This document shows positions 58,291 to 63,905 of a stretch of 64,000 nucleotides of DNA, piece by piece. The notes beneath the pieces were generated by a model. It saw nothing but the letters and a program-made list of their open reading frames with translations. It was not told the origin of the DNA and ran no database searches. Source of the DNA: Solimonas fluminis (GTDB taxonomy: Bacteria > Pseudomonadota > Gammaproteobacteria > Nevskiales > Nevskiaceae); the NCBI RefSeq assembly GCF_002930645.1, contig NZ_PSNW01000005.1, forward strand, positions 62,001-126,000, in the 5' to 3' direction. The position numbers were made by a program, and so were the translations under genes. Every line of letters starts with the position of its first letter. Position 1 is the first letter of the stretch.

Positions 58291-60288
58291 ATGAGCGAAT
58301 ACGTCCAGCTGCTGTACGACTGGATCAACGCCCACCCGACCTGGGCACAGATCCTGCTGTTCCTGGTGACGCTGGCCGACGCCATCTTCATCCTCGGCGC
58401 CTTCGTGCCGGCCGGCGTCGCGCTGTTCGCCATGGGCGCGCTGATCGCCCTGGGCTCGCTGGACCTGTGGACCACGGTGCTGATCGCCGCGGCCGGCGCG
58501 CTGGCCGGCGACGCGCTGTCGTTCTGGCTGGGCCGCCGCTACGGCAACCGCCTGTTCGAAGGCCGCCTGATGCAGCGCTACCCGGAGGCGCTCAACAATG
58601 CGCGCCGCTTCTTCGATCGCCACGGCGGCAAGGGCGTGATGCTGGCGCGCTTCCTCGGGCCGGTGCGCTCGGTCACGCCGGCGCTGGCCGGCGCCGCCAG
58701 CATGCCGGCCTGGCTGTTCCTGCTGACCGACGGCATCGCCGCGCTGGCCTGGGCCCTGGCGTACATCCTGCCGGGCGTGGTGTTCGGCGCCTCGCTGGGC
58801 CTGGCGGCGGAAGTCGCCGGCCGCCTGGCCCTGCTGATCCTGCTGATGGCCCTGTTCGTCTGGCTGGTGATCGCCCTCACCGGCCTGGTCATCGGCCAGC
58901 TGCAGAAGCGCGCGGAGGACTGGATCGGCGCGCTGCTCGACTGGAGCCGCCGCCATCGTCGCCTGGGCCGCTTCGGCGCCGCCCTGGCCGATCCCGACCA
59001 GCCGGAGACGCCGGTCCTGGCGCTGATGGCACTGGCGCTGCTCGCCCTCGGTGGCGCCTTCCTCTACTTCTGGGCGGCGCCCGGCATCAGCCCCGATCCC
59101 AAGTCGATGGACGTCGCCGTGTTCCAGGCGCTGCGCGAACTGCACACACCCTGGGGCATCGCCCTGGCCCAGGCCCTGCTGCAGCTCGGCGAATGGCCGG
59201 TATACCTGCCGCTGGCGGTGATCGTGTTCCTGGCGCTGCTGATCGCGCGCAAGGGCCGCGCCACCGCGCACTGGCTGGGCGCGCTGGGTTTCGCCGCGCT
59301 GATCTCCGTGGGCCTGTACCTGGTGCCCAAGATCCCGCCGCCGTTCCGCCAGTTCGGCAGCTTCGAGCCCTCCGGCTACCACGCCGTGGACCTGGTGCTG
59401 ACCACCGTGATCTATTCCTTCCTGCCGGTGCTGCTGGCCACCGGCCGCCGCACCGGCACGCGCGTGATGATCTACGGCGTCAGCGCCGCGCTGGTGCTGC
59501 TGATCCTGCTGGCGCAGCTCTACCTGGGCGTGCAGTGGTGGAGCATCGCCGTGTTCTCGCTGGCCATCGGCGTGATCTGGACCGCGCTGCTGGGCCTGGG
59601 CTACCGCCGCCACCAGCCCGAGAAGGTCAGCGGCCGCCGCTTCGTGCTGCCGGTGCTGTCGGTCTTCGTGCTGGCCGCCAGCCTGCAATGGTCCGACGAC
59701 CGCGCGCTGGCGCAGGAGCCGCTGCCGCAGCGCACGCTCAGCATCGTGCAGATCGAGGACTGGGCCCGCTCCGGCTACCAGAAGCTGCGCTCGCAGCGCC
59801 AGAACCTGTTCGGCCGCGAGCGCCAGCCCTTCAACCTGCAGTGGGCCGGCAACCTCGACCGCATCGAGGCGCAGCTGCGCGCCCAGGGCTGGCAGGAAAC
59901 GGCCCCGCTGGGCCTGCAGAACGGCCTGCGCTGGCTGGCGCCGGACACGCCGGTGGAGCAGCTGCCGGTGCTGCCGCAGGTCAACGCCGGCCGCCACCAG
60001 GCCCTGGTGCTGCGCTACCCGCTGCCCGGCGACGACACGCGCCAGTACCTGCTGCGGCTCTGGCCCACCGGCTACAAGACCAGCCGCGGCGAGCCGATCT
60101 GGATCGGCTACATCGCCGAGCAGCAGGCCCGCAGCGTCTACCGCCTGCTGCGCTATCCCGTCTACCTGCGCAACCCCGTGCCGCTGCCGCAGCTGCTCGG
60201 CCAGCTGCCGGGCACGCGCGTGCTCGGCGCCGGCGCGGTCTGGCGCCTGAAAACCGACGAACCACCGACCGAGCCCCCTCATGGCTAA
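58291..60288 (+). CDS. DedA-PAP2-LssY triple-domain membrane protein
   Basis: 665 residues. DedA domain (residues ~15-200; FVPAGVALFAMGALIALG, GDALSFWLGRRYG, FLGPVRSVTPALAGAA), PAP2-like domain (~245-440), and LssY C-terminal domain (from ~475; QRTLSIVQIEDWARSG). DedA members carry lipids such as undecaprenyl phosphate; PAP2 is a phosphatase fold. The PAP2 signature is damaged: PSGY-H replaces PSGH, and LYLGVQWWSIA replaces the usual LYLGVHW-SD, losing the catalytic His and Asp. So the middle domain is probably not an active phosphatase. Overlaps ftsY by 8 bp. Confidence 0.85.
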   Translation: MSEYVQLLYDWINAHPTWAQILLFLVTLADAIFILGAFVPAGVALFAMGALIALGSLDLWTTVLIAAAGALAGDALSFWLGRRYGNRLFEGRLMQRYPEALNNARRFFDRHGGKGVMLARFLGPVRSVTPALAGAASMPAWLFLLTDGIAALAWALAYILPGVVFGASLGLAAEVAGRLALLILLMALFVWLVIALTGLVIGQLQKRAEDWIGALLDWSRRHRRLGRFGAALADPDQPETPVLALMALALLALGGAFLYFWAAPGISPDPKSMDVAVFQALRELHTPWGIALAQALLQLGEWPVYLPLAVIVFLALLIARKGRATAHWLGALGFAALISVGLYLVPKIPPPFRQFGSFEPSGYHAVDLVLTTVIYSFLPVLLATGRRTGTRVMIYGVSAALVLLILLAQLYLGVQWWSIAVFSLAIGVIWTALLGLGYRRHQPEKVSGRRFVLPVLSVFVLAASLQWSDDRALAQEPLPQRTLSIVQIEDWARSGYQKLRSQRQNLFGRERQPFNLQWAGNLDRIEAQLRAQGWQETAPLGLQNGLRWLAPDTPVEQLPVLPQVNAGRHQALVLRYPLPGDDTRQYLLRLWPTGYKTSRGEPIWIGYIAEQQARSVYRLLRYPVYLRNPVPLPQLLGQLPGTRVLGAGAVWRLKTDEPPTEPPHG

Positions 60289-61204
60289 CGACTCCGCCAT
60301 CGGCCGCTTCCGCGCCCGCCTCAACAAGGGCGACTCCTGGCTGACGCGCGACATCGGCAGCTTCTTCAAGGCCGACGTCCTCAGCCCCGACGCGCTGGAG
60401 GAACTGGAGACGCGGCTGCTGCTGGCCGACGCCGGCGTCGAGGCCACGCAGTGGCTGGTCGAGCGCCTGCAGGCCGACATCAACCTCGGACGCATCAAGA
60501 ACGAGAAGCAGCTGCGCGCCTCGCTGAAGAAGGCCCTGGTCGAACTGCTGGCGCCGATCGCCAAGCCGCTGCAGATCCCACCCTTCATCAAGCCCTACAT
60601 CCTGTTCGTGGCCGGCGTGAACGGCGTGGGCAAGACCACCACCATCGGCAAGCTGGCGCTGCGCCTCAAGCGCGAGGGCAAGTCGGTGATGCTGGCGGCC
60701 GGCGACACCTTCCGCGCCGCCGCGGTGCAGCAGCTCGAGACCTGGGCCCAGCGGGTGGACGTGCCGATCCTGGCGCAGGGCGAGGGCGCCGACTCCGCCA
60801 GCGTGATCTACGACGCCGTGCAGTCGGCCAAGTCCCGGGGCGTGGACGTGGTCATCGCCGACACCGCCGGGCGCCTGCACACGCAGAGCCACCTGATGGA
60901 GGAACTGCGCAAGATCAAGCGCGTGCTGCAGAAGCACGACCCCTACGCCCCGCACGAGGTGCTGCTGGTGGTGGATGCCACCACCGGCGGCAACGCCCTG
61001 ACCCAGGCCATCCAGTTCCACGAGGCGATCGGCCTCACCGGCCTGGCCATCACCAAGTTGGACGGCACCGCGAAGGGCGGTATCCTGCTGGCGATCGCGC
61101 GGCGCATGGCCCTGCCGGTCCGCTTCGTCGGCCTCGGCGAGGCGGCGGAGGACCTGGAGCCGTTCGACGCCGAGGCCTACGCCGAGGCCCTGATCGGCGA
61201 ATAG
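60281..61204 (+). CDS. ftsY: Signal recognition particle receptor FtsY
   Basis: 307 residues, lacking the long acidic A domain of E. coli FtsY. N domain then SRP-type GTPase: GVNGVGKTTT (112-121), LAAGDTFRAAAVQQLE, VVIADTAGRLHTQSHL, TKLDGTAKGG and the C-terminal FVGLGEAAEDLEPFD. Receives ribosome-SRP complexes at the membrane. Start overlaps the preceding gene by 8 bp, and the next gene is ftsE, the standard order. Confidence 0.98.
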   Translation: MANDSAIGRFRARLNKGDSWLTRDIGSFFKADVLSPDALEELETRLLLADAGVEATQWLVERLQADINLGRIKNEKQLRASLKKALVELLAPIAKPLQIPPFIKPYILFVAGVNGVGKTTTIGKLALRLKREGKSVMLAAGDTFRAAAVQQLETWAQRVDVPILAQGEGADSASVIYDAVQSAKSRGVDVVIADTAGRLHTQSHLMEELRKIKRVLQKHDPYAPHEVLLVVDATTGGNALTQAIQFHEAIGLTGLAITKLDGTAKGGILLAIARRMALPVRFVGLGEAAEDLEPFDAEAYAEALIGE

Positions 61205-61957: not shown

Positions 61958-61968
<11 letters not shown>

Positions 61969-62911
61969 AGAGAGCCTCCAGGTCCAGCCGCTGCCCCTGA
62001 TGCAGCGGCTGACCCAGGAACATACCCGCGTCTTCTTCTTCTCGCTGGGCAAGCTCGGACGCAATCCCGTGGGCACGCTGCTGACCGCCCTGGTGATCGG
62101 CGTGGCCCTGGCGCTGCCGGCCGGCATGCACGTGCTGACGCAGAACCTCAGCAAGATCTCCTACAGCTGGCAGGACTCGCTGCAGCTGTCGCTGTTCCTG
62201 AAGGATTCGGTCAGCACCGAGCGTGGGGCCGCACTGGCCCGCGAGATCCGCGGCCGTCCCGGCGTGCAGGCCACGCGCTACATCTCGCGCGAGCAGTCGC
62301 TGGCCGAGTTCCGCAGCCAGTCCGGCTTCGGCGATGCCCTGGACGTGCTGCAGGACAACCCCCTGCCGGCGGTGATCGCGGTGACGCCGGAGCGCGGCCG
62401 CAACAAGCTGCAGGTGGAGGTGCTGCTGGGCGAACTGACCCGGCTGCCGGAAGTGGACCTGGCCAAGCTCGACCAGAAATGGCTGGAGCGGCTCTACGCC
62501 ATCCTCGGCATCATCGACCGGGCGGTGTTCATCGTCGGCCTGCTGCTCGGCATCGCCGTGGTGGTGACCGTGGGCAACACCATCCGCCTGGACATCGAGG
62601 CGCGGCGCGAGGAGATCAGCGTGATGAAGCTGATCGGCGCTCCCGACAGCTTCATCCGCCGGCCCTTCCTCTATACCGGCTTCTGGTACGGACTGGCCGG
62701 CAGCGTGTTCGCGCTGGTCCTGGTCCTGGCCGGCACCCTGGCCCTGTCCGGGCCCAGCGAGACCCTGGCCTCGCTGTACGACAGCAGCTTCACCCTCAGC
62801 GGCCTGTCCTTCGGCTCCAGCCTGCTGCTGCTGCTGACCGGCATCGTGCTGGGCTGGATCGGCGCCTGGATCACCGTCTGGCGGCATCTGGCCGACATCC
62901 AACCCCAGTAG
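61958..62911 (+). CDS. ftsX: Cell division membrane protein FtsX
   Basis: 317 residues. Four membrane helices, with a periplasmic region between the first two (KISYSWQDSLQLSLFLKDSVS to VDLAKLDQKWLERL), and GAPDSFIRRPFLYTGFWYGL at the end. Start is GTG at 61958, within ftsE. Acts with FtsE. Followed by the rpoH leader. Confidence 0.95.
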
Positions 62912-62969
62912 CCTTGTAAATCATGTACTTAGCCCCACTGGGGGCGAAATCCGGAACTTCCAGGGGGGC

Positions 62970-62996
62970 TTAGCACTCCAATCCGCCGAGTGCTAA
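62970..62996. promoter_or_regulatory. CIRCE element (HrcA operator) upstream of rpoH
   Basis: TTAGCACTC (62970-62978), exactly nine bases, then GAGTGCTAA (62988-62996): a perfect CIRCE palindrome, the target of the heat-shock repressor HrcA. It lies 28 bases before the rpoH ATG. This predicts HrcA control of the sigma-32 gene. Confidence 0.95.
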
Positions 62997-63023
62997 CATG
63001 GCCTCAACGAAGGGAGTGAACGC

Positions 63024-63905
<882 letters not shown>

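Follow-up and report, generated by a model that had tools for sequence, protein, structure and literature searches.

We found that rpoH of Solimonas fluminis, the gene for the heat-shock sigma factor, is preceded by a perfect CIRCE palindrome, the predicted site of the repressor HrcA, and that this palindrome shares bases with promoter-like elements of two kinds. Comparison with relatives indicates that the register of CIRCE is fixed relative to one rpoH promoter and probably to a second, so that RpoH made under everyday conditions and under envelope stress could both be controlled by one repressor. Judging from sequence, we consider it fairly probable that CIRCE here functions as an HrcA operator within the rpoH promoter region, where HrcA would block a housekeeping and a sigma-E promoter at one site.

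The CIRCE site before rpoH and the predicted HrcA targets of the genome

The window, that is, the whole stretch of 64 kb that was analysed, comes from a genome (G000) assembled to 4.67 Mb in 34 contigs. It contains a single CIRCE site at up to 3 mismatches, TTAGCACTC-CAATCCGCC-GAGTGCTAA, which has 0 mismatches over the 18 specified arm positions. The features of the locus are as follows.

60281-61204, strand not given: FtsY, upstream of FtsX (NCBIfam match)
61958-62911, + strand: ftsX, upstream of rpoH (NCBIfam TIGR00439, 364 bits against a cut-off of 255)
62970-62996, no strand: CIRCE operator (predicted HrcA site), a perfect 9-9-9 palindrome, kept before rpoH in the family and the class
63012-63016, + strand: GGGAG, ribosome-binding-site-like by its sequence
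63024-63905, + strand: rpoH, heat-shock sigma factor of 293 aa (TIGR02392 equivalog, 394 bits against a cut-off of 323.1; sigma-70 regions 2 and 4)

A sequence-only reading of this DNA had placed a perfect CIRCE at 62970-62996 before rpoH; the position, the match of all 18 arm positions and the identity of RpoH hold, and its distance of 28 bases to the sigma-32 start counts to the A of the ATG, 27 bases lying between the end of the palindrome and the start codon. An ABC-ATPase-like frame between FtsY and FtsX is, by its translation alone, taken for FtsE. The gap between ftsX and rpoH also holds an inverted repeat, GCCCC-N3-GGGGGC, at 62932-62945; similar repeats occur at the equivalent place in genus mates, most clearly in G001 and G002, and a terminator scan around the repeat found none.

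Chance can be ruled out as the origin of the rpoH site, since CIRCE at up to 3 mismatches appeared in 0 of 100 dinucleotide shuffles of the window and CIRCE appeared in 0 of 2440 base shuffles of the rpoH upstream stretches of the class sample described below.

The genome also carries the repressor that such a site would need, and the absence of an hrcA gene, which the sequence-only reading had named as one of the findings that would speak against it, is not what we found: the single hrcA match, on contig G000:C33, is intact and full-length (TIGR00331, 317.4 bits against a cut-off of 197.2), its DNA-binding and C-terminal Pfam domains both exceed their cut-offs, and a grpE-like frame, read from translation, follows it. 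A genome-wide search for other CIRCE sites, also proposed in that reading, returned one more at up to 3 mismatches, before groESL, and the two sites, rpoH and groESL, are the only ones at this threshold. The groESL site has 2 mismatches, with the left arm TTAGCAGCC, and lies 72 bases before groES; the rpoH site alone is perfect genome-wide. The pair recurs, before rpoH and groES, in three genus mates, so that both sites are present in 4 of 4 genus genomes.

HrcA/CIRCE had been said usually to govern groESL and dnaK. The groESL half of this statement stands, but the hrcA-grpE side is without the operator: no CIRCE was found at the hrcA-grpE locus of this genome (L003, 3660 bases), where the best candidate has 6 mismatches, and none upstream of hrcA in 20 of 20 stretches from the family, with 6-9 mismatches at best (the hrcA start was not located in L347, L353 and L358). 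Since CIRCE at the hrcA operon is a frequent but not a constant feature, the membership of this genome in the HrcA/CIRCE regulon stands.

A second RpoH-like sigma factor is encoded elsewhere (L150, G000:C32:169423-170214). It is 51% identical to RpoH and reaches 279 bits to TIGR02392, below the cut-off of 323, and no CIRCE lies within 400 bases upstream of its gene. Second, less similar rpoH copies in G009, G017, G040, G051, G052 and G055 likewise have no CIRCE upstream.

Conservation of the rpoH site in the family and the class

In the family, hrcA was found in 57 of 58 genomes, the exception, G012, being 79% complete, and RpoH was matched in 56 of 58. Three genomes were left out: G022 and G053, where no protein matched RpoH at 1e-60, and G054, whose RpoH lies at a contig end with no DNA upstream of it. 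In all of the 55 genomes that could be tested, the main rpoH is preceded by the CIRCE arms. In 53 of them, at 54 sites (G023 has two copies), the spacer is 9 bases long and CIRCE has up to 4 mismatches, and two genomes of one genus, G032 and G033, have perfect arms around an 8-base spacer before rpoH (L127, L340), a natural spacing variant. Exactly two CIRCE sites at up to 3 mismatches are found in 44 of the 58 genomes. Recent ancestry alone is an unlikely cause of this conservation, because the bases further upstream are free to vary (in the CIRCE-aligned rows of the family, no base from -60 to -18 is common to much more than half) and because the class sample holds one genome per family.

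That sample comprised 132 gammaproteobacterial genomes, of which 10 without an RpoH match at 1e-85 were dropped, giving 122 rows; the genome of this window was left out, G087 was counted twice, and kinship was handled by the one-per-family sampling alone. CIRCE at up to 4 mismatches and within 350 bases of the RpoH match was present in 83 of 91 hrcA-positive rows versus 5 of 31 hrcA-negative rows. The presence of the rpoH site thus tracks hrcA across the class. The five hrcA-negative rows with a site (G138, G122, G168, G175 and G071) may reflect recent loss of hrcA or a missed gene; eight hrcA-positive rows are without a site, and one of these, G154, retains a decayed site whose spacer is 8 bases long.

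Larger and differently chosen sets were also searched. Across 370 class genomes, 277 of which have hrcA, the composite GGAACTT-N9-TTAGCACTC-NAA-N6-GAGTGCTAA at up to 3 mismatches was present in 138, and the reversed pattern in 0. All but one of the composite-bearing genomes have hrcA (137 of 138, the exception being G138), an overlap that tests CIRCE and not its interlock with a promoter. The composite loci read, 30 from the 138 matching genomes, all adjoin rpoH, 29 of them in matching orientation. One further composite, in G119 (L339, G119:C8:46500-49500), sits before clpB, of which the first 498 residues were read, and rpoH of G119 is without CIRCE.

Among 80 named rpoH loci, CIRCE at up to 4 mismatches was found in 18, at 19 sites, and none was found at this threshold in the other 62, which include Enterobacterales, Vibrio and Halomonas. 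Of the 80, Fontimonas thermophila (Nevskiaceae, Gammaproteobacteria according to NCBI) has the closest RpoH, with 75% identity. Catenovulum sp. 2E275 (L017) has a tandem pair of CIRCE sites before rpoH, 34 bases apart.

These distributions bear on whether the rpoH site might be a relic, with HrcA no longer mattering for rpoH in this species. We regard this as improbable: the rpoH site is perfect, as against two departures at the groESL site, all four genus genomes keep both sites, and 26 of 31 hrcA-negative rows are without CIRCE, so an unused site does not persist long.

Promoter-like elements overlapping the palindrome

The sequence-only reading was right about the site and the gene, but it had missed the overlapping promoter-like elements, which carry the mechanism. 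These are the following.

62953-62959, + strand: GGAACTT, -35 of sigma-E type, 10 bases before CIRCE; in register in the family and at most class sites
62977-62981, + strand: TCCAA, -10 of sigma-E type; TC closes the left arm of CIRCE, and CAA fills spacer positions 1-3
62970-62975, + strand: TTAGCA, possible housekeeping -35, 18 bases from TAACAT; 4 of 6, weak in this genome, and TTGGCA in some relatives
62991-62999, + strand: TGC-TAACAT, proposed extended -10; TGCTAA is the end of the right arm and CAT the flank
63006-63007, + strand: A,A, possible housekeeping transcription start, proposed from a small conservation bump, with A at the equivalent of 63007 in 43 of 88

Sigma-E recognizes GGAACTT and TCnnA separated by 16-17 bases. 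The element before rpoH, GGAACTT-N17-TCCAA at 62953-62981, fits this pattern, with a spacing of 17 versus 16 in most relatives. Within this genome alone, the pattern has 2 matches versus 4 for its reversed form and is not rarer than the control; the significance of the sigma-E promoter therefore rests on its conservation. The sigma factor itself is present: RpoE scores 295.2 bits against a cut-off of 236.15, and the gene after rpoE has an RseA N-terminal domain (27 bits against a cut-off of 24), although a search of this RseA-like gene against NCBIfam at 1e-10 gave no match. A GGAACTT lies between rpoE and the RseA-like gene (L338, at about 1212, - strand) and is a possible sigma-E promoter whose -10 fits TCnnA poorly.

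The family alignment shows a conspicuous GGAACTT at -16 to -10, then TC at the end of the left arm and mostly YAA in the spacer. Indeed, all 54 of the 54 family sites with a 9-base spacer have an in-register -35 at up to 2 mismatches, at a distance from CIRCE of 9 bases in 46 and of 10 in 8. The genome of this window has no match to the stricter composite because its own distance is 10, one base off. Across the class, the -35 (up to 2 mismatches, 8-10 bases from CIRCE) is found at 60 of 88 rpoH sites, while any three neighbouring distances away from this peak account for at most 6 of 88. In both sets the bases upstream of the -35 are not conserved. An A at the third spacer base is present at 56 of the 60 class sites with the -35 and at 12 of the 28 without it (P 5e-7); the -35 thus covaries with the last A of the -10, as a promoter predicts.

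When 430 bases were scanned for the whole sigma-E promoter, 52 genomes had it in register, and there were 11 occurrences at other positions. Of these 11, 7 lie 24-36 bases before CIRCE, at sites where the promoter may have been displaced upstream instead of lost. An in-register -35 was missing from 28 of the 88 class sites; 7 of the 28 have such an upstream sigma-E-like promoter, and the other 21 show none nearby, so that the overlap is common, not universal. At the 19 sites of the named loci, no in-register -35 was found in Pseudoalteromonas and in two tubeworm endosymbionts.

As a control we used 24 groESL operators, 4 from the genus and 20 picked among the family matches listed, all of them with groES downstream on the same strand. 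They have the palindrome and the repressor in common with the rpoH sites, but differ in the left arm and in the type of promoter. The left arm TTAGCAGCC, a conserved two-base departure from the palindrome, is present in 23 of the 24 sites read, and 22 of 24 have CTTGA[AT], a sigma-32-like -35, at 28-29 bases upstream of the palindrome. The in-register sigma-E -35 was absent from all of them (0 of 24), which rules out GGAACTT as an extended HrcA contact. The motif TGCTAAnAT was absent as well (0 of 24). HrcA's two targets are thus paired with different promoters, and neither feature is needed by HrcA.

That motif would mark the second promoter. The most conserved bases outside CIRCE lie directly 3' of the site and read A/T, A, T (the T at 1.38 bits), giving, with the right arm, TGCTAA[A/T]AT. 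In this genome the sequence is TGCTAACAT, which resembles the extended -10 TGnTATAAT, with A second and T sixth in the hexamer. The final T of TGCTAAnAT is present at 78 of 88 class rpoH sites versus none of the groESL sites (P 8e-17), and TGnTAnnnT at 77 of 88. The mirrored position of the left flank has the matching base at 16 of 88 class sites; this lack of conservation argues that the final T is not a plain HrcA contact, and a flank preference of HrcA is an unlikely explanation of TGCTAAnAT, which has no mirror image on the left and is missing from the 24 groESL sites. The T is also kept at 24 of the 28 class sites without a sigma-E -35. On the other side of the site, the third base of the left arm departs from the palindrome 27 times among the 88 class sites, versus 2 for the mirrored base of the right arm; the drift is mostly to G, giving TTGGCA (25 of 88 relatives), which is nearer to TTGACA, the -35 expected 16-18 bases from the -10. 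In this genome TAACAT and TTAGCA each match 4 of 6; most of the class has a stronger -10 than TAACAT, and a consensus scan of 62700-63100 found no sigma-70 promoter. On these sequence grounds we are less sure of the housekeeping half than of the sigma-E half.

The failure of the simple scan to pass a sigma-70 promoter, and the retention of CIRCE at the 28 class sites without a sigma-E -35, would both suit a plain HrcA operator that blocks transcription from promoters further upstream, as a roadblock or by general occlusion, the promoter likenesses being unused. We find this unlikely, though it retains some weight, because it leaves unexplained the fixed register of GGAACTT, the covariation of -35 and -10, and the occurrence of TGCTAAnAT at rpoH but not at the 24 groESL sites.

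An operator interlocked with promoters is also, to our mind, far better placed than a role of CIRCE as a hairpin of the rpoH mRNA that acts in stability or thermosensing. The palindrome would be present in any transcript started further upstream, and CIRCE is known to affect mRNA stability in Bacillus. However, both proposed starts lie inside or after CIRCE and would yield transcripts without the hairpin; moreover, the arms are conserved in sequence and not merely in pairing (bases four to six of the left arm in 88 of 88), and the presence of the site tracks hrcA. A hairpin role is, therefore, highly improbable.

A possible HrcA gate on RpoH supply

In Bacillus subtilis, CIRCE stands at groE and dnaK, and the activity of HrcA is tied to GroE, its cofactor. 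The predicted operator before rpoH would resemble that system in being an HrcA operator near the transcription start of a heat-shock operon, but in B. subtilis CIRCE controls chaperone genes directly, with no sigma-32 tier below. If the cofactor role of GroE extends to S. fluminis, then with GroE to spare HrcA would be active and sit on the palindrome, and rpoH transcription would be low. Bound HrcA would cover the -10 of the sigma-E promoter, probably its start, and the housekeeping promoter from the -35 to the extended -10. Upon protein-folding stress or shortage of GroE, HrcA would become inactive, releasing groESL and rpoH together; with envelope stress in addition, free sigma-E would drive its own promoter at rpoH. 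The supply of RpoH would then be high only with HrcA off, and highest with sigma-E also on, which would tie it to both GroE sufficiency and envelope stress.

One published observation may count against this model. During nitrogen starvation of Xylella fastidiosa, according to a review, the hrcA transcript rises more than 4-fold and that of rpoH 2-fold (PMC11764788); the two rising together is not what simple repression would give.

Control of RpoH is best known from E. coli, the textbook case of the heat-shock response, where it acts mostly after transcription. The E. coli genome, used as a control, gave no hrcA match. In Enterobacter, Citrobacter and Klebsiella, GGAACTTGTGGATAAAATCACTGTCTGA precedes rpoH; this GGAACTT-N16-TCTGA element, 141-146 bases before the start of the RpoH match, we take to be the sigma-E promoter P3 of E. 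coli, and no CIRCE at up to 4 mismatches was found at these loci. P3, which depends on sigma-E, is thus a promoter of the same kind as that proposed at the CIRCE-bearing rpoH genes, but stands without CIRCE in the enteric loci. G124, which has no hrcA, shows a degraded CIRCE beside a sigma-E promoter. The enteric and G124 patterns fit, but do not prove, a decay of the operator after loss of hrcA. Loci without CIRCE do not generally show such a bare remnant: a bare sigma-E promoter was found at 11 of 18 picked named loci and in 6 of 34 class rows.

These patterns allow a wider proposal: that one 27-base palindrome is both operator and promoter core, the left arm giving the start of the sigma-E -10 and the housekeeping -35 and the right arm the extended -10; that HrcA gates both inputs to rpoH; that this arrangement is ancient in Gammaproteobacteria; and that the palindrome decayed upon loss of hrcA, leaving a bare sigma-E promoter in some lineages, with E. 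coli P3 a remnant. We advance it tentatively, with somewhat less than even confidence in the whole.

RpoH of Geobacter sulfurreducens was reportedly the subject of an experimental study by Ueki and Lovley in 2007. Earlier, in 2004, a CIRCE before rpoH of that species, at position -51, had been predicted (PMC545781, Table 8). As far as the available portion of that paper goes, the likeness is close, with a perfect CIRCE shortly before rpoH, hrcA present and CIRCE also at groESL; G. sulfurreducens differs in that its hrcA-grpE-dnaK-dnaJ genes also have CIRCE, and no overlap with a sigma-E promoter or an extended -10 is described in that portion (PMC545781). A CIRCE before rpoH is therefore not new in kind. 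In the open literature searched, PMC545781, in its available portion, was the only source found to place CIRCE before rpoH, and no account of an interlock of CIRCE and promoter at rpoH was found, Permina and Gelfand 2003 and Ueki and Lovley 2007 lying outside that scope.

The hierarchical link from HrcA to RpoH proposed in the sequence-only reading, by which a loss of HrcA would be predicted to raise RpoH, is thus of a known kind, but it is likely to exist here, given the presence of hrcA, the family-wide site and its tracking of hrcA. To that link the present analysis would add a precise wiring, in which the state of GroE acts through HrcA on rpoH and sigma-E acts on rpoH directly, and a possible explanation of how enteric rpoH came by its bare sigma-E promoter. 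For much of the hrcA-bearing Gammaproteobacteria, the data suggest a transcriptional gate on RpoH supply, set by a chaperone-sensing repressor whose site overlaps an envelope-stress promoter.
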